Assembly: GCA_024235615.1 (NCBI GenBank)
Contig: JACKMB010000010.1
Span: forward strand, 1 to 64,000
DNA from: Thauera sp.
GTDB taxonomy: Bacteria; Pseudomonadota; Gammaproteobacteria; Burkholderiales; Rhodocyclaceae
DNA: 64,000 bases
Direction: 5' to 3'
The notes below the pieces were generated by a model that was not told where the DNA came from, did not search any database, and saw only the letters and a program-made list of their open reading frames with translations. Shown piece by piece: positions 782 to 32,150 of this stretch. Positions within the stretch are counted from its first letter, which is position 1; every line of letters starts with the position of its first letter. The position numbers and the translations under genes were made by a program.

Positions 782-1353
782 GCAAGCGCGTCATCGTGAT
801 TGGGGCAGGTGGCCATGGGCGGTCCGTAGCCGAGGCGATTCTGCTGCTCGGGCGGGATGAACTCGTCGGCTTTGTCGATGACGGCGCCGATGCGAACGCG
901 AGGGTGTGGGGCTATCCGATCCTCGGCAGGACGGACTCGCTTCACTCCTTGTGCGAGTATGCCGATGCAGTTGTAGTCGCGATCGGCAACAATGCCGTCC
1001 GCGAAAAGCTGCATGCGCGGGTGCGCGAAGCTGGCTTCGAGCTGCTGAGCGTGATCCATCCCACTACCTTCGTCTCGCCGACCGCCGCATTGGGCCCTGG
1101 ATGCGCGGTGATGGCGGGCGCGGTGGTGGGAACGGAAGCCCAGCTTGGCGAGGGCGTGATCGTCAATTGCGGCGCCACCGTCGACCACCATTGCAGGGTC
1201 GATGCCTTCGGGCACCTCGGCGTCAATGCCTGTATGGCAGGTGGATCGGTGTTGGGGCAGCGTGCCTGGATGCAGGCCGGAAGCGCGCTCGGCTATGGCG
1301 TGCAGGTGAAAGACGACGCAGTGCTTGCACCCGGCGAGGCGCGCTCGAGCTGA
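778..1353 (+). CDS. NeuD/PglD-family sugar O/N-acyltransferase (left-handed beta helix)
   Basis: 191-residue acyltransferase. The N-terminus has a Rossmann-like nucleotide-sugar binding motif (IVIGAGGHGRSVAEAI), followed from about residue 95 by hexapeptide repeats (PTAALGPGCAVMAGAVVG, VNCGATVDHHC) that build the left-handed beta helix. Family members acetylate amino sugars during O-antigen, sialic acid or bacillosamine synthesis. It starts by a 4-base overlap with the upstream transferase and lies before a 4,6-dehydratase, which fits modification of a 4-amino-6-deoxy sugar (inference). The C-terminus stops at VLAPGEARSS, without the usual final VVGxPA-type coil, so it may be slightly truncated. 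Confidence 0.8.
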   Translation: MSKRVIVIGAGGHGRSVAEAILLLGRDELVGFVDDGADANARVWGYPILGRTDSLHSLCEYADAVVVAIGNNAVREKLHARVREAGFELLSVIHPTTFVSPTAALGPGCAVMAGAVVGTEAQLGEGVIVNCGATVDHHCRVDAFGHLGVNACMAGGSVLGQRAWMQAGSALGYGVQVKDDAVLAPGEARSS

Positions 1354-1408: not shown

Positions 1409-3244
1409 ATGAATAATTCAATCCGTTCCGTTCTTGTCTTCCTGTTCGACCTGCTTGCGGTAGTAATCGCCTGGGTCGGGGGGATGTGGATTCGCTTCAA
1501 CTTCGAGTGGTCCAGCACCTATTCTCAAAAGCTGTTGCTTGGCCTTGCCGTGCTGCTCGTGGTCCACGCGCTCGCCTGCCGCTGGGCCGGCCTGTACCGG
1601 GGGATGTGGATCTTCGCGAGCCTTCCGGATCTGAAGCGCGTTCTGCGCGCGGTGGGCGTCTCGGCCCTGGCGCTGGTCGCGCTGCTGGCGGTCGATCGCA
1701 CACCCGGCCCCGAAATCCCCCGCTCCATGCTCGTCCTCTACCCCCTGCTGCTACTCATCGTCATGGGCGGCGGCCGCGCCGCTTGGCGCATGTGGCGCGA
1801 GCATCGTCTCTTCGGCGATCTGGTCGCCGCCGGCAAACCGGTGGTGATTGTCGGCGCGGGCAGTGGTGGAGCAATGTTGGTGCGCGAGCTCGAGCGCAGC
1901 CCGGACTGGCGGGTGGTCGCCCTGGTCGATGACAACCCGACGAAGTGGGGCCTGGAACTCTACGGCCACCCGGTCGTCGGCAAGATCGAACTGCTGCCGC
2001 AGGTGCTCGCGGACTACAAGGCGAATCATGTGATCCTGGCCATGCCCTCGGCAGCTGGCGACACGCTCAAGCATGCGGCGGACACCGCGGTACGAGCCGG
2101 CGCCCACGTCTTCACCGTGCCCGGCATCGAGGACCTGATGAGCGGCAAGGTGGCGATCAACGCAATGCGCCCGGTGGACATCGAGGACCTGCTCGGCCGC
2201 GAGCCGGTGAAGATCGATTCGGCGCATGTGCAGGCCATGATCACCGGCAAGACTGTGCTGATCACCGGTGCGGGCGGTTCGATCGGCAGCGAGCTTTGTC
2301 GCCAGCTCGCGCGCTTCGCGCCGGCCCGGCTGGTGCTGTTCGAGGCCAGCGAGTTCGCGCTGTACAACATCGAGCAGTGGTTTCGCGTGCACAAGCCCGA
2401 GACGCAGATCGTACCGCTGGCCGGCGACGTGAAGGATGCGCCGCGCCTGGAGGAAGTGTTTGCCGAGTGGAAGCCGCAGCTCGTCTTCCACGCCGCCGCC
2501 TACAAGCACGTGCCGCTGATGGAGGTGGGCAACGCCTGGCAGGCGGTGCGCAACAACGTGCTCGGCACGCTGATGGTGGCCGCGCATGCGCAGCGCGTGG
2601 GCGCCGAGCGTTTCGTGCTGATTTCCACGGACAAGGCGGTGAATCCCACCAACGTGATGGGCGCCACCAAGCGGCTGGCCGAAATGGCCTGCGAGGGTCT
2701 TGGGCAGCTCCGCGGCAAGGGCACGCAGCTCGAGATGGTGCGCTTTGGCAACGTGCTGGGCAGCACCGGCAGCGTGATCCCCAAGTTCGCCGAGCAGATC
2801 GCGCGCGGCGGGCCGGTGACGGTGACGCACCCCGAGATCAACCGCTACTTCATGTCCATCCCCGAGGCGGCGCAGTTGGTGCTTCAGGCTGCAGCGATGG
2901 GCAACGGCGGCGAGGTCTTCGTGCTCGACATGGGCGAGCCGGTGAAGATCGTGGATCTGGCACGGAACATGATCCGGCTGTCGGGCTATACGGAAGAAGA
3001 GATCCGTATCGAGTTTTCCGGGCTGCGACCGGGCGAGAAGCTCTACGAGGAGCTGCTTGCGGATGCCGAGGAGACGCGCGAGACGCCGCATCCCAAGCTG
3101 CGCATCGCACGTTCACGGCCGGTGCCGGAGACCTTCCTCGACGAGCTGACGCAGTGGCTGTCGCAGCCTGGGCCGGTGAGCGACGACGAGGTGCGAGCGG
3201 GACTGAAGCGCTGGGTGCCGGAGTATGAGCCGGCGCGGCATTGA
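1409..3244 (+). CDS. Membrane-bound nucleoside-diphosphate-sugar 4,6-dehydratase (WbpM/CapD/PglF type)
   Basis: Dehydratase converting a UDP-N-acetylhexosamine to the 4-keto-6-deoxy intermediate. 611 residues from the ATG at 1409, where MNNSIRSVLVFLFDLL begins the first transmembrane segment; an upstream in-frame ATG at 1325 overlaps the previous gene and adds unrelated residues. Four hydrophobic N-terminal segments are followed by a first nucleotide-binding domain (VVIVGAGSGGAMLVREL). The catalytic SDR domain starts with T286-GAGGSIG. The active site has STDK (406-409) and Met417-x3-Lys421 in place of Tyr-x3-Lys, the WbpM-type substitution. Length is normal for the family. It probably acts with the flanking transferase and acyltransferase in one surface polysaccharide. 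Confidence 0.92.
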   Translation: MNNSIRSVLVFLFDLLAVVIAWVGGMWIRFNFEWSSTYSQKLLLGLAVLLVVHALACRWAGLYRGMWIFASLPDLKRVLRAVGVSALALVALLAVDRTPGPEIPRSMLVLYPLLLLIVMGGGRAAWRMWREHRLFGDLVAAGKPVVIVGAGSGGAMLVRELERSPDWRVVALVDDNPTKWGLELYGHPVVGKIELLPQVLADYKANHVILAMPSAAGDTLKHAADTAVRAGAHVFTVPGIEDLMSGKVAINAMRPVDIEDLLGREPVKIDSAHVQAMITGKTVLITGAGGSIGSELCRQLARFAPARLVLFEASEFALYNIEQWFRVHKPETQIVPLAGDVKDAPRLEEVFAEWKPQLVFHAAAYKHVPLMEVGNAWQAVRNNVLGTLMVAAHAQRVGAERFVLISTDKAVNPTNVMGATKRLAEMACEGLGQLRGKGTQLEMVRFGNVLGSTGSVIPKFAEQIARGGPVTVTHPEINRYFMSIPEAAQLVLQAAAMGNGGEVFVLDMGEPVKIVDLARNMIRLSGYTEEEIRIEFSGLRPGEKLYEELLADAEETRETPHPKLRIARSRPVPETFLDELTQWLSQPGPVSDDEVRAGLKRWVPEYEPARH

Positions 3245-5213: not shown

Positions 5214-5240
5214 CCGGGGTCAGGTCTTTCATTTGCTCAC
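5214..5240. repeat. Repeat shared with the polA linker
   Basis: Contains GGGGTCAGGTCTTTCATTTG. The same stretch of about 26 bases recurs in the same orientation at about 13620-13646 inside polA. In both places the minus strand would encode MKDLTP. Confidence 0.75.
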
Positions 5241-5915: not shown

Positions 5916-6236
5916 TCCGTGTGGGAGTGGCGGAAGGCGGGAAGGCTGTGGTTGCGTTGATGCGGTTATTCGGAGGCTGCATTCGCGCCTGCCCGCGCTC
6001 CTGCAGGGGCAACGGGTCCGCGGCGGCTTGTGTAGGAGCGCCGGCAGGCGCGAATGCAGCCGTCGGATCGTGCCAATGCGCCGAATGCTGCGCCGCCGTG
6101 TTCGCGCCTGCCGGCGCTCCTACATGAGACGGTGCGCTTTCGTTTTGCGCTGGAGCGGCAGAAGGCGGGAAGGCTGCGGTTGCGTTGGGCGGCGCGGTTA
6201 TTCGGAGGCTGCGTTCGCGCCTGCCGGCGCTCCTAC
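5916..6236. repeat. Cluster of REP-like elements before the phosphohexomutase
   Basis: Fills most of the 412-base gap between genes. Class B inverted copies lie at about 5981-6004 (degenerate), 6101-6123 and 6214-6236, and a direct class B copy at 6031-6053. A degenerate A-like copy (GGGAGTGGCGGAAGGCGGGAA) begins about 5922 and recurs about 6150. No protein-coding signal is seen here; the open frame running through it into the mutase gene is repeat sequence. Confidence 0.75.
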
Positions 6237-9917: not shown

Positions 9918-11768
9918 TCACGGAGCGTCCGGCTCGATCCCCATCGCCTGCAGGCGCGCGTAGGTGCCGCCGCGGGCGACGAGATCGGCGTGCGTGCCGC
10001 GCTCGACGATGCGGCCGGCCTCCATCACCAGGATCTGGTCGGCCTTCTCGATCGTCGACAGCCGGTGCGCGATCACGATCGTCGTGCGGCCTTCCATCAG
10101 GCGCTCGATCGCTGCCTGGATGAGCCGCTCCGACTCGGTGTCGAGCGCAGAGGTGGCCTCGTCCAGGATCAGGATGGGCGCGTTCTTCAGCAGCGCGCGC
10201 GCGATCGCCAGGCGCTGGCGCTGGCCGCCGGAGAGCAGCACGCCGTTCTCGCCGATCTCGGTGTCGAAGCCCTGCGGCAGGCGGTCGATGAACTCGCGCG
10301 CGTTGGCGGCCTCGGCGGCGGCAACGACCTGCTCGCGGCTGGCGCCGGCGAGCTCGCCGTAGGCGATGTTCTCCGCGACCGTGCCGTTGAAGAGCGTGAC
10401 CTGCTGGGTGACGAGCGCGATGTGGTGGCGCAGGTTGGCGAGCGTGTAGTCCTCCACCGCCACGCCATCGACCAGTAGCCGGCCTTCGTCGTGCTGGTAG
10501 AAGCGCGGGATGAGATTGGCGAGGGTGGACTTGCCGCTGCCCGACTTGCCCACCAGCGCGATCATCTGGCCGGGCTCGGCCTGGAAATCGATGCCGTGCA
10601 GCGCGCGGCCCTCCGCGCCGGGATAGCCAAAGCCCAGGCCCCGGGCCTCGACACGACCGGCGATGCGTGCGCGCTCGACGGTGCCGCCGTCGGGCTCGGG
10701 CGCCTCGTCGAGCTGCTCGAAGATGCTGTCGGCCGCGGCCACGCCGCGCTGGATGCGCGCGCTCACGCCCCCCAGCAGCTGGATCGCGCGCGGCAGCAGG
10801 CCGGCGGCGGTGATGTAGGCGACCACGTCGCCGGCCGAGGCGTCGCCGCGCACCTTCAGCACCGTGAACAAGAGCAGGCCCATCGACGAATACACGATCA
10901 GGTGCATCAGCGCCGAGAAGGTCTCCTGCGTGCGCACCATCTTGAGCTGGCGCTTGGTGTTGTGGGTGCTGGCCTTGACGAAGCGCGCACGCTCGTAGTC
11001 CTCGCCCCCAAAACTGCGCACCACGCGGTAGCCCTGGATGGTCTCGGAGGCGACGTGGGTGACCTCGCCCATCGAGGTCTGGATATTCTTCGACAGGCGG
11101 CGGAACTTGCGGCTGGCATTCGACACCAGCCAGGCGATCGCCGGCAGCACGACGAGCAGGGTCAGGGTCAGGCGCCAGTTCATCCACAGCAGGTAGCTCA
11201 GCAGCGCGATGACGGTGAGGCCCTCGCGGAACAGGATCTTGACCGCGTCGGTGGCCGCGTCGGTCACCATCGACACGTTGTAGGTGAGCTTTGAGACGAG
11301 GTGGCCGGAGTTGTTGGCGTCGTAGAAGCGGTTGGGCAGCACCAGGAAGCTGCCGAAGAGCTGGGTGCGCAGGTCGTGGATGAGGCCGAGCGAGACGCGC
11401 GAGATGCCGTAGTTGCCGAGGAAGGTGCCGAGGCCTTCGACCAGCGCGATCACGACGATCATGGCCGGGATCGCGAAGATGAGGTCGAGCGCGTCCAGCC
11501 AGGGCAGGCCGGTGGCGATCGGCGCGTCGGGCGCGGCCAGGCCGTCGATGAAGTACTTGAGCACGCTCGCCAGGCCTGCCTTGCAGGCGCCGGCGATGGC
11601 GAAGCCGAGGATGCTGAGGGCGAAGTAGCCGAGGAAGGGCCGGGTGTAGCCGAGCAGGCGGAGGTAGACCTTCATGCTGCTGGCGGCGGGTTTCTCCGCT
11701 GCGGGCGCTGCGGCCCCGGCGCCGGGGGCCGGGGCGGCGGACGAGCCGGGGTTCGGTGCGGAGCTCAT
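9918..11768 (-). CDS. msbA: Lipid A/phospholipid flippase, ABC transporter with fused TM and ATPase domains
   Basis: 616 residues from the ATG at 11768; a GTG five codons further out (11783) is an alternative start. MsbA flips lipid A-core across the inner membrane. An Ala/Pro-rich tail of about 30 residues precedes six transmembrane helices (roughly 40-325). The C-terminal ATPase has Walker A GKSGSGKST, Q-loop VTQQVTLFNG, signature LSGGQRQRLAIARAL, Walker B ILILDEATSALD and the H-loop IAHRLST. Full length for a half-transporter working as a homodimer. It lies downstream of polA on the same strand, 52 bases away. Lipid A export is the most likely role given overall similarity; other lipid substrates cannot be excluded. 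Confidence 0.88.
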   Translation of the reverse strand: MSSAPNPGSSAAPAPGAGAAAPAAEKPAASSMKVYLRLLGYTRPFLGYFALSILGFAIAGACKAGLASVLKYFIDGLAAPDAPIATGLPWLDALDLIFAIPAMIVVIALVEGLGTFLGNYGISRVSLGLIHDLRTQLFGSFLVLPNRFYDANNSGHLVSKLTYNVSMVTDAATDAVKILFREGLTVIALLSYLLWMNWRLTLTLLVVLPAIAWLVSNASRKFRRLSKNIQTSMGEVTHVASETIQGYRVVRSFGGEDYERARFVKASTHNTKRQLKMVRTQETFSALMHLIVYSSMGLLLFTVLKVRGDASAGDVVAYITAAGLLPRAIQLLGGVSARIQRGVAAADSIFEQLDEAPEPDGGTVERARIAGRVEARGLGFGYPGAEGRALHGIDFQAEPGQMIALVGKSGSGKSTLANLIPRFYQHDEGRLLVDGVAVEDYTLANLRHHIALVTQQVTLFNGTVAENIAYGELAGASREQVVAAAEAANAREFIDRLPQGFDTEIGENGVLLSGGQRQRLAIARALLKNAPILILDEATSALDTESERLIQAAIERLMEGRTTIVIAHRLSTIEKADQILVMEAGRIVERGTHADLVARGGTYARLQAMGIEPDAP

Positions 11769-11820
11769 CGCGCGCAATGACACGGGGCGGCTGCAGAGAG
11801 GAGACGGCGCGCCACGGCCA

Positions 11821-14661
11821 TCAGTGCGCCTCGTCCCAGTTGTCGCCCGCGCCGACCTCCACCAGCAGCGGCACCTTCAGCTCGGCGACACCGCCCATCC
11901 GCTTGGGCAACTCGTTGCGGATGGTGTCGAGCTCGGCCTTGGGCACTTCCAGCACCAGCTCGTCGTGGACCTGCAGCACCAGCTTCGACTTCAGGCCCGA
12001 CGAGGCCAGCCAGGCGTCGGTCGCGATCATCGCGCGCTTGATGAGGTCCGCCGCCGTGCCCTGCATCGGCGCGTTGATCGCCGCACGCTCGGCACCGGCG
12101 CGACGGCCGGCCTGGCTGGCGCGGATGTCGGGCAGGTAGAGGCGGCGGCCGAACACGGTCTCCACAAAGCCCTTGTCGCGCGCCTCGGCGCGGGTGCGGT
12201 CCATGTACTCGGCGACGCCGGGATAGCGCGCGAAGTAGCGGTCGATCCAGCTCTGCGCAGCGGCGCGCTCGATGCCGAGGTTCTTGGCCAGGCCGTGCGC
12301 GCTCATGCCGTAGATGAGGCCGAAGTTGATCACCTTGGCGTAGCGGCGCTGCTCGCTGCTGACCTCGGCCGGCGCCACGCCGAAGACCTCGCCGGCGGTG
12401 GCGCGGTGCACGTCCTCGCCGTTCGCGAAGGCTTCGAGCAGGCGGGCGTCGTCCGACAGGTGGGCCATGATGCGCAGCTCGATCTGCGAGTAGTCGGCCG
12501 AGACGATGAGGTGCTCGCGCGGCGCGATGAAGGCGGCGCGGATGCGGCGGCCCTCCGGCGTGCGGATCGGGATGTTCTGCAGGTTGGGCTCGGAGCTCGA
12601 CAGCCGGCCGGTGACCGCGGTGGCCTGCGAGAAGCTGGTGTGCACGCGGCCGGTCCTGGGGTCGACCATGCGCGGCAGCTTGTCGGCGTAGGTGCTCTTC
12701 AACTTGGACAGGCTGCGGTGCTCGAGCAGCAGCTTGGGCAGCGGGTAGTCCTCGGCGAGCTTCTCCAGCACCTCCTCGTCGGTGGAGGGCTGGCCGGTGG
12801 CGGTCTTCTTGACCACCGGCAGGCCGAGCTTGCCGAACAGGATCTCGCCGAGCTGCTTGGGCGAGCCGAGGTTGAAGGGCTGGCCGGCGAGCGTGTGGGC
12901 CTCGCCTTCGAGCGCGTGCAGGCGGCGGCCGAGCTCCTCGGAGTGCTGGCTGAGCAGGAAGGGGTCGATCAGCACCCCGGTGCGCTCCATGCGCTGCAGC
13001 ACGCCGAGTACCGGCATCTCGAGCTCGCGATAGAGCGTGTCGAGCTGCGGCAGGGCCTGGAGCTGCGGGTAGAGCTGGCGGTGCAGGCGCAGGGTGACGT
13101 CGGCGTCCTCGGCGGCGTATTCGGTGGCGCGCGCCACGTCCACCTCGTCGAAGCCGATCTGCTTGGCGCCCTTGCCGCAGACATCCGTATAGGGGATCGT
13201 CGCGAGGCCCAGGTGGCGCTTGGCGAGCGAATCCATGTCGTGCGACTTGTCGCTCTCGAGCACATAGGATTCGAGCAGGGTGTCGTGCTCGATGCCGCCG
13301 AGCCGGATGCCGTGGTTGGCGAGCACGTGGGCGTCGTACTTGAGGTTCTGCCCGAGCTTGGCGTGCTGGTCGGACTCCAGCCAGGGGCGCAGCTTCTCCA
13401 GCACCTCGTCGAGCGGCAGTTGCACCGGCGCATCGGCCGCGCGGTGCGCCAGCGGCAGGTAGGCCGCCTCGCCCGGCTCGACCGCGAACGACATCCCCAC
13501 CAGCTTCGCCGCCATCGGGTCGAGGCTGGTGGTCTCGGTGTCGAAGGCGGTGAGCGCGGCGGCGGAGATCTTCGCCAGCCAGACGTCGAAGGTGGGCCAG
13601 TCGAGGATGGGGAGATAGTCCGGGGTCAGGTCTTTCATTTGCTCATCCGCGGTCACCGCGGACGCTCCCCCTGGTCCGGAGGCCCCGGAAATCGGGCTCT
13701 GTCCCCTAATTCCTTCCCATGTAGGAGCGTCGGAAGCCGCGAACGCGCTAGCATCCCGTGTTGCCCCGAACCGGCGCGAATCCGTGGCCGCCTTCGAGGC
13801 CGCCACGCTTTCCGCCCCGCCATCCAGATCCTTCAGCCACGACTTGAACTCGAAGCGCTCGTAGAGCGCGCGCAGCGCCGCCTTGTCGTCCTCGCGCGCG
13901 GGCAGCTCGTCGAGACCCACCGGGAGCTCGACGTCGGTCGCCACCGTCACCAGCCTCTTGCCGAGCGGCAGGAAGTCCAGGTGCCGACGCAGGTTCTCGC
14001 CGACCTTGCCGCCCACCTTGTCGGCGTTGGCGACCAGGTTGTCGAGGGTGCCGTACTCGGTAAGCCACTTCACCGCGGTCTTGGGGCCGCACTTCTCCAC
14101 GCCCGGCACGTTGTCCACCGTGTCGCCGACCAGCGCGAGGTAGTCGACGATGCGCTCCGGCGGCACGCCGAACTTGGCCTCCACGCCGGCCTCGTCCAGC
14201 ACCTCCTCGCTCATGGTGTTCACCCAGCGCACCCCGGGGCGCACGAGCTGGGTGAGGTCCTTGTCGCCGGTCGAGATCACCACCTCCCAGCCACGCTCGA
14301 GCGCCTGGCGGGTGAGCGTGCCAATGACGTCGTCGGCCTCCACGCCCTCCACCGACAGCAGCGGCCAGCCTTCCGCCTGCACCGCCTCGTGCAGCGGCGC
14401 GATCTGCGCGCGCAGGTCGTCGGGCATCGGCGGGCGGTGCGACTTGTATTCGGGATACCAGTCGTCGCGGAAGGTCTTGCCCTTGGCGTCGAAGACGCAG
14501 GCGCGAAATTCTGCCTTGTAGTCGCTTTCCAGCCGCCTTAGCATCGACAGCACCCCCCGGATCGCCCCCGTCGGCTCGCCTTGCGAATTGCGCAGGTCGG
14601 GCAGGGCGTGGAAGGCGCGGTAGAGATAGCTGGAGCCGTCGACGAGCAGCAGGGTGGGCAT
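11821..14661 (-). CDS. polA: DNA polymerase I
   Basis: 946-residue repair and Okazaki-processing polymerase. The 5' nuclease domain (about 1-290) starts LLVDGSSYLYRAFHAL. The proofreading domain has D374-T-E376 (FDTETTSLDP), NLKYDAHVLANHG and YAAEDADVTLRLH, so its metal ligands are kept. The polymerase domain has motif A VSADYSQIELRIMAHLSDD, motif B RRYAKVINFGLIYGMS and motif C with H899-D-E. Oddity: the linker between the nuclease domains (about residues 300-350) contains in-frame repeat DNA, with a REP-like element at 13721-13743 and the MKDLTP-encoding repeat at about 13620-13646. The start codon is only 23 bases from that of the divergent LOG-family gene. Confidence 0.95.
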   Translation of the reverse strand: MPTLLLVDGSSYLYRAFHALPDLRNSQGEPTGAIRGVLSMLRRLESDYKAEFRACVFDAKGKTFRDDWYPEYKSHRPPMPDDLRAQIAPLHEAVQAEGWPLLSVEGVEADDVIGTLTRQALERGWEVVISTGDKDLTQLVRPGVRWVNTMSEEVLDEAGVEAKFGVPPERIVDYLALVGDTVDNVPGVEKCGPKTAVKWLTEYGTLDNLVANADKVGGKVGENLRRHLDFLPLGKRLVTVATDVELPVGLDELPAREDDKAALRALYERFEFKSWLKDLDGGAESVAASKAATDSRRFGATRDASAFAASDAPTWEGIRGQSPISGASGPGGASAVTADEQMKDLTPDYLPILDWPTFDVWLAKISAAALTAFDTETTSLDPMAAKLVGMSFAVEPGEAAYLPLAHRAADAPVQLPLDEVLEKLRPWLESDQHAKLGQNLKYDAHVLANHGIRLGGIEHDTLLESYVLESDKSHDMDSLAKRHLGLATIPYTDVCGKGAKQIGFDEVDVARATEYAAEDADVTLRLHRQLYPQLQALPQLDTLYRELEMPVLGVLQRMERTGVLIDPFLLSQHSEELGRRLHALEGEAHTLAGQPFNLGSPKQLGEILFGKLGLPVVKKTATGQPSTDEEVLEKLAEDYPLPKLLLEHRSLSKLKSTYADKLPRMVDPRTGRVHTSFSQATAVTGRLSSSEPNLQNIPIRTPEGRRIRAAFIAPREHLIVSADYSQIELRIMAHLSDDARLLEAFANGEDVHRATAGEVFGVAPAEVSSEQRRYAKVINFGLIYGMSAHGLAKNLGIERAAAQSWIDRYFARYPGVAEYMDRTRAEARDKGFVETVFGRRLYLPDIRASQAGRRAGAERAAINAPMQGTAADLIKRAMIATDAWLASSGLKSKLVLQVHDELVLEVPKAELDTIRNELPKRMGGVAELKVPLLVEVGAGDNWDEAH
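13618..13743. repeat. Repeat DNA inserted in frame in the polA linker
   Basis: Three parts: about 26 bases identical to the repeat at 5214-5240; a sequence GAAATCGGGCTCTGTCCCC like the GGGGTC-type repeats around ccdAB; and a REP-like element at 13721-13743 with core GCGTCGGAAGCCGC, close to class A. Translated on the minus strand this gives about residues 307-348 of PolA, a low-complexity linker. Confidence 0.8.
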
Positions 14662-14684
14662 TCCGAATCCTAGAGAACAACAAC

Positions 14685-15410
14685 ATGACCGCGAAAGACA
14701 AACTCCCCCGCAGCGTGCCCGACAGCACCGCGCCGCGCTACAACGCGCGCGAATCCTGGCGGATCTTCGGGATTATGGCAGAGTTCGTGGAGGCGACCGA
14801 ACGCCTGGCCGCGATCCGCCCCGCGGTCTCGATCTTCGGCAGCGCACGTACGCCGCCCGACCACATGTACTACATGCTCACCGAAAGGATTGCCCGACTG
14901 CTGTCGGATTCGGGCTTCGCGGTGATCTCGGGCGGCGGCCCGGGCATCATGGAGGCGGCCAACAAGGGCGCCTTCTTCGGCAAGAGCCCCTCGGTCGGGC
15001 TCAACATCCAGCTGCCGCTGGAGCAGGCCGCCAATCCCTACCAGGACATCTCGCAGACCTTCCAGCACTTCTTCGCGCGCAAGTTCATGTTCGTGAAGTT
15101 CGCCACCGCCTACGTGGTGATGCCGGGGGGCTTCGGCACGCTCGACGAGCTGCTCGAGGCGATGACGCTGGTGCAGACCAAGAAGAGCCGCAAGATCCCG
15201 ATCATCCTGGTGCATCGTCCATTCTGGCAGGGGCTGCTCGACTGGCTGCGCGACCGCCTGGTGGCCGAAGGCATGATCAACCCGGAAGACCTCGACCTGA
15301 TCCAGGTGATCGACGAGCCCGAGGAGGTGGTCGATGCGATCTTCAAGCACTATGAGCGGCGTGGCTTCCAGCCTCTGCCGGCGGAACGGGAGATGATGCT
15401 GAACCTGTGA
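14685..15410 (+). CDS. TIGR00730/LOG family Rossmann-fold protein
   Basis: 241-residue member of the LOG family (nucleoside 5'-monophosphate phosphoribohydrolases in characterised members). The signature PGGFGTLDE is present in VVMPGGFGTLDELLEAMTLVQ, and the nucleotide-binding ISGGGPGIMEAANKGAFF precedes it. An N-terminal extension with ESWRIFGIMAEFVEATERLA, seen in the longer proteobacterial members, supports the start at 14685. The bacterial physiological substrate is uncertain. The gene is divergent from polA with 23 bases between start codons, so its promoter must lie inside the polA coding end or be shared. Confidence 0.85.
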   Translation: MTAKDKLPRSVPDSTAPRYNARESWRIFGIMAEFVEATERLAAIRPAVSIFGSARTPPDHMYYMLTERIARLLSDSGFAVISGGGPGIMEAANKGAFFGKSPSVGLNIQLPLEQAANPYQDISQTFQHFFARKFMFVKFATAYVVMPGGFGTLDELLEAMTLVQTKKSRKIPIILVHRPFWQGLLDWLRDRLVAEGMINPEDLDLIQVIDEPEEVVDAIFKHYERRGFQPLPAEREMMLNL

Positions 15411-30408: not shown

Positions 30409-30759
30409 ATGCGCTCGCTGCAGGTGGTGATGCTGATGCTGTGCGTGCTGGGCGGGCTGTTCCTGCTCGTGCGCGCGCCCGAGTTCTTCCTGCCTGCGCA
30501 GTGGGACCCCTCGATCGGGCGCAGCTTCGATCCGCTCGCCTCGCGCCTGCTCGGCGCCGGGCTGCTGGCGCTCGCCGCGGCCGGCGCGGGCTACATCCAT
30601 GCGATGTATTACACGATGCCGCGCCGGCTGCCCGGCCCGGCGGCGCAACGTCGCCATTTCGCCCTGCTGCTCGCCGCCCTGGTGCTGATCGGCGCGGCGC
30701 TGGCGCGCGCCGAGCCGGGTCCGAATCCGGAGTATCGCCCGCCGCGACACACCCGGTAG
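30409..30759 (+). CDS. Small membrane protein of unknown function
   Basis: 116 residues with three hydrophobic segments (MLMLCVLGGLFLLV, LLGAGLLALAAAGAGYI, FALLLAALVLIGAALA). No family recognised. It follows ruvB by 15 bases and probably shares its transcript. The last codons (PPRHTR and the TAG stop) are identical to the spacer and first bases of the 140-bp repeat unit downstream (compare 31022-31039), so the repeat array begins inside the coding sequence and supplies the stop. Confidence 0.6.
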   Translation: MRSLQVVMLMLCVLGGLFLLVRAPEFFLPAQWDPSIGRSFDPLASRLLGAGLLALAAAGAGYIHAMYYTMPRRLPGPAAQRRHFALLLAALVLIGAALARAEPGPNPEYRPPRHTR

Positions 30760-32150
30760 GAGCGGCGGCAGCCGCGAAGACGGCGGTCCGGCGAGCGCGC
30801 CGCCCATCTCGTGCGCCGTGGATCGCGCCTGCCGGCGCTCCTACATGAACCGCCCTTTCCGCAGCGGCGCCGCGACATCCGCCGCGACACGCCCTGTAGG
30901 AGCGGCGGCGGCCGCGAAGACGGCGGTCCGGCGAGCGCGTCGCCCATCTCGTGCGCCGTGGATCGCGCCTGCCGGCGCTCCTACATGAACCGTCCTTTCC
31001 GCAACGACGCCGCGACATCCGCCGCGACACACCCGGTAGGAGCGGCGGCAGCCGCGAAGACGGCGGTCCGGCGAGCGCGTCGCCCATCTCGTGCGCCGTG
31101 GATCGCGCCTGCCGGCGCTCCTACATGAACCGTCCTTTCCGCAGCGACGCCGCGACATCCGCCGCGACACGCCTTGTAGGAGCGGCGGCAGCCGCGAAGA
31201 CGGCGGTCCGGCGAGCGCGTCGCCCATCTCGTGCGCCGTGGATCGCGCCTGCCGGCGCTCCTACATGAACCAAGCTTTCCGCAGCGACGCCGCGACATCC
31301 GCCGCGACACGCCCTGTAGGAGCGGCGGCAGCCGCGAAGACGGCGGTCCGGCGAGCGCGTCGCCCATCTCGTGCGCCGTGGATCGCGCCTGCCGGCGCTC
31401 CTACATGAACCGCCCTTTCCGCAGCGGCGCCGCGACATCCGCCGCGACACGTCTTGTAGGAGCGGCGGCAGCCGCGAAGACGGCGGTCCGGCGAGCGCGT
31501 CGCCCATCTCGTGCGCCGTGGATCGCGCCTGCCCGCGCTCCTACATGAACCAAGCTTTCCGAAGCGACGCCGCGACATCCGCCGCGACACGCCCTGCAGG
31601 AGCGGCGGCAGCCGCGAAGACGGCGGTCCGGCGAGCGCGTCGCCCATCTCGTGCACCGCGGTTCGCGCCTGCCGGCGCTCCTACATGAACCGCCCTTTCC
31701 GCAGCGACGCCGCGACAAGCCCTGTAGGAGCGGCGGCAGCCGCGAAGACGGCGGTCCGGCAAGCGCGTCGCCCATTCCGTGCGCCGCGGTTCGCGCCGGC
31801 CGGCGCTCCTACATGAACCGCCCTTTCCGCAGCGACGCCGCGACATCCGCCGCGACACGCCCTGTAGGAGCGGCGGCAGCCGCGAAGACGGCGGTCCGGC
31901 GAGCGCGTCGCCCATCTCGTGCGCCGTGGATCGCGCCTGCCGGCGCTCCTACATGAACCGTCCTTTCCGCAGCGACGCCGCGACATCCGCCGCGACACGC
32001 CTTGTAGGAGCGGCGGCAGCCGCGAAGACGGCGGTCCGGCAAGCGCGTCGCCCATCTCGTGCCGTGGATCGCGCCTGCCGGCGCTCCTACATGAACCGTC
32101 CTTTCCGCAGCGACGCCGCAACACGACCTGTAGGGGCGTCGCCGCGCTCA
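30741..32150. repeat. Tandem array of a 140-bp BIME-like unit, ten copies
   Basis: Class A elements in direct orientation begin at 30756, 30896, 31036, 31176, 31316, 31456, 31596, 31724, 31864 and 32004; a truncated remnant is at 32130. Spacing is exactly 140 except one of 128 bases, where 12 bases of the spacer are missing. In every unit an inverted class B element follows about 70 bases later, ending in CTCCTAC, then a spacer beginning ATGAACC. Copies differ by scattered single bases. All frames are open through much of the array, but a 140-base period is not a multiple of three, so a protein is unlikely. Confidence 0.95.

Follow-up and report, generated by a model that had tools for sequence, protein, structure and literature searches.

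Several families of REP-like repeats recur in frame at the DNA polymerase I linker over a family of genera that includes Thauera

In a stretch of 64,000 nucleotides from a Thauera sp. contig (JACKMB010000010.1, assembly GCA_024235615.1; hereafter the window), we found that part of the linker of DNA polymerase I is encoded by short repeats inserted in frame, and that several REP-like families recur at this PolA linker over a family of genera. A curiosity of repeats in repair genes is thereby turned into a countable, testable pattern, with one linker, several families, one phase, and other linkers as controls.

The polA frame (open reading frame 14661 to 11821, minus strand) has zero inner stops and runs continuously across the repeats, as an earlier note on this DNA had held in stating that no frameshift occurs; the extent given there for the repeat DNA, about residues 300 to 350 (13618-13760), lies close to what we find (Table 1). 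Pfam identifies both parts of the 5' nuclease, the 3'-5' exonuclease domain, and the polymerase domain, and the NCBIfam match to DNA polymerase I covers nearly the full length of the protein, so that domain matches flank the repeat stretch on both sides. EADDV and GDKDL, which we take to be nuclease catalytic motifs, and DTET, DYSQIELR, KVINFGLIYG, and QVHDE, presumably the other catalytic motifs, are all found, in agreement with the earlier claim that the catalytic residues on either side are intact. An AlphaFold2 model, built on an alignment of 29 PolA proteins, has a mean pLDDT of 80.9 and values below 50 at residues 283-345, and the ten-residue blocks beside this part reach 83 (271-280) and 97 (351-360); the inserts are thus predicted to sit in a disordered stretch with well-folded neighbors on either side. 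A hairpin spanning the whole linker was considered and set aside, since its fold is no better than that of shuffles (z -0.04), and no structured element is claimed. Searches of the linker DNA against a phage collection and of positions 11500-15000 against Rfam gave zero matches.

Table 1. Coordinates of polA, its repeat-derived linker, and the repeats described in the text
Feature	Position	Strand	Basis or remark
polA, DNA polymerase I	11821..14661	-	946 aa, frame open throughout; Pfam and NCBIfam matches
Repeat-derived part of PolA linker, about residues 299-348	13618..13767	-	Comparison with L024/L025; AlphaFold pLDDT
GTAG REP, antisense to polA, read as FAASDAPT	13718..13748	+	One stem mismatch
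Repeat B1 (GGAATTAGGGGACAGAGCCCGATTTCC), read as GIRGQSPIS	13687..13713	-	GGGGACAGACCCC-type repeat
Tentative degenerate sense-strand REP, read as GGASAVTAD	13645..13671	-	GGGGGAGCG then 7-bp hairpin TCCGCGG-TGA-CCGCGGA
Repeat A (TGAGCAAATGAAAGACCTGACCCCGG), read as EQMKDLTP	13620..13645	-	26-nt identity
Repeat A, second window copy	5214..5239	+	Between Uma2 gene and ORF without Pfam match

The REP-like element that the earlier note saw in the linker is a GTAG REP, matching TGTAGGAGCGNCGGNNGNCGCGAA exactly at 13720-13743, with the GTAG tag adjoining the stem (TGTAGGAGCG at 13720). Its stem, GCGTC/GCCGC, carries one mismatch where that of Thauera phenylacetica is intact (GCGGC/GCCGC), and on its own the polA copy does not outdo shuffled sequence in folding (z 0.43). 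The same element, at up to 2 mismatches, occupies 45 places in the window (shuffle mean 0.00), and at up to 1 mismatch 977 places (489 + 488) in the source genome (G000; 4.01 Mb, 14 contigs), where the reversed pattern gives 0. The polA copy is intragenic, as are certain known exceptions to the extragenic location expected of the GTAG REP superfamily. Judged by eye, 4 of the 45 window copies lie wholly inside stop-to-stop frames that pass a codon score, namely the polA copy and those at 6101, 6214, and 54673, the latter three no more than 202 nt into their frames and possibly ahead of the true start; four more overlap a frame edge. Of 30 further copies, the first in the list for contig C1, the codon score places 0 within coding sequence; as a test for gene interiors this score gives false negatives, as it missed repeat A within polA. 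Elsewhere in the window, at 30599-32146, a 140-nt unit that carries a GTAG REP pair is repeated in tandem about ten times. Within the linker, 13645-13671 is tentatively a degenerate sense REP; its hairpin is weak (z -1.3), and in two other linkers (L011 and L013) B1 is likewise followed by a clear sense REP.

Repeat A accounts for two items that had been listed separately: the GGGGTC-type repeat and the sequence shared with the neighborhood of a Uma2 gene are both present, yet they are one 26-nt element (CCGGGGTCAGGTCTTTCATTTGCTCA), identical in its two window copies, the second of which lies beside the Uma2 gene (PF05685, 5330-5890). Of the three elements counted earlier, two are therefore one, and a further element, repeat B1, had not been separated. 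Repeat A recurs on contigs C5, C12, and C2 of the source genome; it is a few-copy repeat without an evident hairpin and stays unpaired in the DNA fold of the polA linker. The polA stretch with B1 is 86% like C4:138346-138380, inside uvrA, the only other B1 place found in this genome, though degenerate copies could be missed. B1 copies stand in opposite orientation, 30-33 nt apart, in several Thauera genomes, and a literature search, with most subscription journals outside its reach, found no occurrence of the GGGGACAGACCCC string. In two further genomes, B1 repeats lie in frame within a histidine phosphatase gene (L125, G009:C9; L126, G012:C36), in L125 at about residues 213-228 of a 286-codon frame and within the PF00300 match; thus, B1 is not taken by linkers alone.

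Close relatives indicate that the repeats in this linker are a gain, since the linkers of repeat-free Thauera are shorter. In one of these (L024), the linker reads ...ATDSRRF-AAEPAEVADDPPGESGAHRGG-YVTILDW and measures 46 aa from W to Y, and in another (L025) it measures 49 aa; here, ...ATDSRRF is followed by 49 repeat-rich residues, D, and YLPILDW, for a total of 75 aa. About 50 residues stand in place of about 21, and the GAHR motif, common in relatives, is gone. The comparison with relatives upholds the insertion proposed from the sequence, and no repeat-free relative with the same linker sequence and length was found: the ten repeat-free Thauera all differ and are shorter. T. phenylacetica (L010/L039), a separate assembly, has nearly the same composite linker, of 78 aa, and in T. 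aminoaromatica (L012/L040) B1 and repeat A are present but the REP is absent. The source linker and that of T. phenylacetica differ by 2 synonymous and 2 non-synonymous codons in 72, too few for a judgment on selection. In four other Thauera assemblies (G007, G018, G021, and G028), a contig ends in or near the polA linker, as expected if the linker holds repeats.

Extending the comparison, we took 236 PolA loci (some genomes twice), which gave 229 linkers (7 loci lacked an anchor), 204 of them distinct. These 204 linkers have a median length of 39 aa and a maximum of 116, with zero stops and zero frame breaks. Strong inverted repeats (arm score of at least 14) are present in 17 of the 204, compared with 0 of 403 control segments of the same length from the same genes (Fisher 5.6e-9) and 0 of 204 shuffles. 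Sorted by eye, the 17 comprise GTAG pairs (L018, L060, L155, L178, and L204), GGGGACAG pairs (L019, L052, L059, L159, and L164), GGGGTCAG pairs (L014, L023, L181, and L187), CT-rich repeats (L096 and L170), and L034, which is unclassed, has no class motif, and may be a GC-rich chance case. At least one class motif occurs in 33 of the 204 linkers (25.6 kb), in 10 of them by the loose class C alone; the flanking 114 kb of those genes have motifs in 4 sequences, all of them the GTAG 8-mer. On a tree of 189 tips (15 of the 204 were left out for short flanks), 31 carry a motif, and parsimony counts 8 changes for GTAG, 8 for B1, 4 for B2, 1 for A, 8 for C, and 18 for any motif, on the understanding that the tree is rough (563 columns) and that changes may be losses.

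Other linkers served as controls. In 81 genomes of the family that have both genes, polA and mutL, 9 PolA linkers and 1 MutL linker have inverted repeats at an arm score of at least 14 (p 0.018), 8 and 1 at a score of at least 16 (p 0.034), and 9 and 2 at a score of at least 12, which falls just short of separation (p 0.057); the MutL stretches in this comparison total 26.7 kb against 10.2 kb for PolA. Class motifs do not separate the two (PolA 15, MutL 9; p 0.27 with no length correction). Within Thauera, motifs other than class C are found in 12 of 22 PolA linkers, 2 of 26 MutL linkers (5 of 26 if loose class C is counted), 0 of 28 FtsZ linkers, and 0 of 21 DnaA linkers, and inverted repeats scoring at least 14 in 5/22, 1/26, 0/28, and 0/21, respectively; these counts leave out 2 of 28 MutL loci with short upstream sequence, one weak second FtsZ match, and 4 of 25 DnaA loci without an anchor, 2 of which are too short. 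Pooling the three controls (12/22 versus 2/75) gives p 6.6e-8, a value that overstates independence, since the 12 Thauera PolA cases fall into two clades (4 and 8 species). Counted by linker and not by independent event, PolA is enriched in repeats. The mutL of the source genome (G000:C2:546380-546805 plus upstream, L334) shows a frame change in the linker, with an open frame of only 259 codons around MutL_C; this may reflect either an assembly error or a genuine frameshift, in the latter case perhaps with a mutator as the result. The frames of the MutL set were judged by a three-frame check, and in another genome (G134) it shows no open frame in the 330 nt ahead of MutL_C.

Repeats also occur at the junction of the tandem UvrA protein, which in the source genome has an open frame of 2103. 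Its junction (L128, G000:C4 near 138355) combines, in frame, B1 with two paired GTAG REPs; the T. aminoaromatica junction (L122/L399) likewise contains B1 plus a GTAG pair, and two other genomes (G020 and G026) have a B1 palindrome. Among the best 30 matches to the source uvrA, 6 junctions reach an arm score of at least 14, with an inverted-repeat loop limit of 90 nt as against 60 nt for PolA, and the frame is kept in 32 of 32 junctions examined, a set to which L130 and L133 were added because of their B1. Strong palindromes without class motifs lie in frame in the tandem UvrA junctions of L402 (G146) and L404 (G041).

The GTAG repeats in PolA keep to one reading phase. The 204 linkers contain 21 GTAG half-units (10 sense and 11 antisense), and 21 of 21 are in one phase, read as GTA GGA GC or GCT CCT AC (20 of 20 without L266, likely a chance 8-mer). 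The REP has two open phases in sense and three in antisense. If the eight parsimony changes were eight arrivals with two phases open to each, the chance of a single phase would be 0.004; fewer arrivals would make the constant phase less striking. The phases used read VGA... and FAA...APT and are rich in small residues, and RGCRRSY is one of the open phases unused in PolA, a pattern that suggests selection at the protein level as the cause of the constant phase. In the UvrA junction of the source genome, the sense REP is in the CRSGGSRE phase, not seen in polA; hence, the PolA phase rule is not general.

Two RAYT-type genes are present in the source genome. The product of C5:210 (L121:30-593) matches NF047646 (REP_Tyr_transpos) at 144.2 bits, with a cut-off of 80, and GTAG REPs surround it, one overlapping the predicted 5' end and another six on the downstream side (L121 33-56 and 660-1004); judging from this neighborhood, C5:210 may act on the polA REP. 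C5:72668 encodes a RAYT-like product of 295 aa that scores 78.9 bits against NF047646, just below the cut-off of 80, and passes Y1_Tnp (41.7 versus 23). It lies between two inverted copies of repeat A, at 961-982 (-) and 1958-1979 (+) of L120, around an ORF at 973-1860.

The best explanation, and probably the correct one, is that selfish RAYT-type repeats are kept where the flexible PolA linker tolerates them. The linker would act as an insertion site for short palindromes of the RAYT/REP type, which may enter polA as single elements or as inverted pairs. Insertions that break the frame or a domain would be lost by selection, and survivors would be those in the disordered linker whose length is divisible by three and which, in the case of the GTAG REP, also take the phase that encodes small residues. 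Each survivor may lengthen a dispensable stretch and so offer a larger target for the next insertion, and this target growth could produce composite linkers such as REP + B1 + repeat A. Under this scheme, RAYTs like those encoded in the genome may have moved the polA copies, surviving insertions would pave the way for more, and the net effect of the repeats on Pol I would be near neutral. Two observations weigh on this explanation: that REPs elsewhere lie mostly outside genes (the 0 of 30 sampled copies given above) counts against it, and the linkers of FtsZ (0/28) and DnaA (0/21), also long, have none of the motifs, so that tolerance alone may not explain PolA and UvrA.

The Thauera counts for the PolA, MutL, FtsZ, and DnaA linkers, together with the repeats of the tandem-UvrA junctions, speak for the alternative that the insertions are selected and tune repair, either because Pol I binds the REP in its own gene or because linker length alters the coordination of nuclease and polymerase. 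Both B1 copies found in the source genome lie in polA and uvrA, three papers (PMC1525189, PMC2817692, and PMC6006769) cite work in which E. coli DNA polymerase I binds REPs, and a further paper argues that repair genes are struck too often for chance (PMC3733652). We nevertheless consider selection for repair unlikely, as 10 of 22 Thauera PolA linkers do without any motif, the type, number, and orientation of the elements vary, and MutL, also a repair gene, has fewer inverted repeats (1/81 versus 9/81). A broader version, in which mobile palindromes settle preferentially in the PolA and tandem UvrA linkers owing to biased insertion or to selection on repair, is doubtful; if it were true, selfish DNA would repeatedly reshape a hinge in enzymes of nucleotide-excision repair, and the REP DNA inside polA may be acted on by Pol I itself. 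Alternatively, a few ancient insertions could have been followed by overwriting of the linker through gene conversion with genomic repeats, instead of many fresh insertions. The grouping of the repeat-bearing Thauera linkers into two clades, the shared phase of all GTAG units, and the finding that in 8 of 8 members of the second clade RRF is followed, directly or behind an antisense REP, by a repeat of the GGGGACAG or GGGGTCAG type, intact or decayed, all point this way. However, L019, L181, L187, and L204 hold near-perfect palindromes of about 54-62 nt that belong to different families and genomes and look recent and separate, which makes overwriting rather improbable. Chance resemblance or misassembly, to which the contig ends at the linker in four other Thauera assemblies might lend color because repeats cause such breaks, is hardly credible given the nearly identical linker in the separate T. 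phenylacetica assembly and the zero REP matches expected by shuffling. Retention of selfish repeats in a tolerant linker is thus our preferred reading, and the linkers form a natural series in which one can ask if palindromes home in on repair genes, are selected there, or survive in flexible hinges, a question that the 2013 REP paper (PMC3733652), as far as its accessible text goes, left open.

The earlier note compared these repeats with the palindromic elements known within Rickettsia proteins. The likeness stands for behavior, since here too palindromic DNA lies in frame in unrelated genes and different families share one site, and does not extend to membership; the comparison covered behavior and unit length. 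In the accessible text of the sources, RPEs measure about 100-150 nt (PMC3767692 and PMC10969869), compared with units of about 24-35 nt in another host here, and orthologous Rickettsia sites carry different RPE families by species, as in DNA polymerase III alpha with RPE-4 or RPE-6 (PMC3767692). Our system resembles RAYT-REP systems in that the genome has two RAYT-type genes, amid GTAG REPs or between inverted repeat A copies, and differs in that the copies of interest are in a housekeeping gene and that repeat A is a few-copy repeat without an evident hairpin. A Thauera RAYT with Pseudomonas-like REPs (PMC2817692) and in-frame REPs inside RAYT (tnpAREP) genes (PMC6006769) have been described.

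A closer known kind than the Rickettsia elements is the intragenic GTAG REP (PMC3733652), the one report of REPs in polA/uvrA noted among the matches listed by our literature search, which had most subscription journals outside its reach. That 2013 paper, in its accessible portion, places GTAG-tagged REPs inside replication and repair genes and names DNA polymerase I and uvrA, the Pol I case being from a host that may or may not be Thauera; it assigns the GTAG-1 family to Thauera sp. MZ1T, gives REP-encoded stretches of 43-82 aa in Thauera and R. conorii, describes two Xanthomonas recB genes with REPs at nearly one and the same site, and speculates on mutators while naming tolerant linkers as well. 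Intragenic REPs in Pol I and UvrA, and different Rickettsia families at one orthologous site, are therefore already known, whereas several families recurring at the PolA linker, their fixed phase, the linker controls, and the RAYT links, including repeat A around a RAYT gene, are new. The accessible text of the 2013 paper treats the GTAG and CGTC families; in the PolA linkers compared here, B1/B2, repeat A, and CT-rich repeats share the site, and recurrence over a family of genera and the constant phase come from this work.
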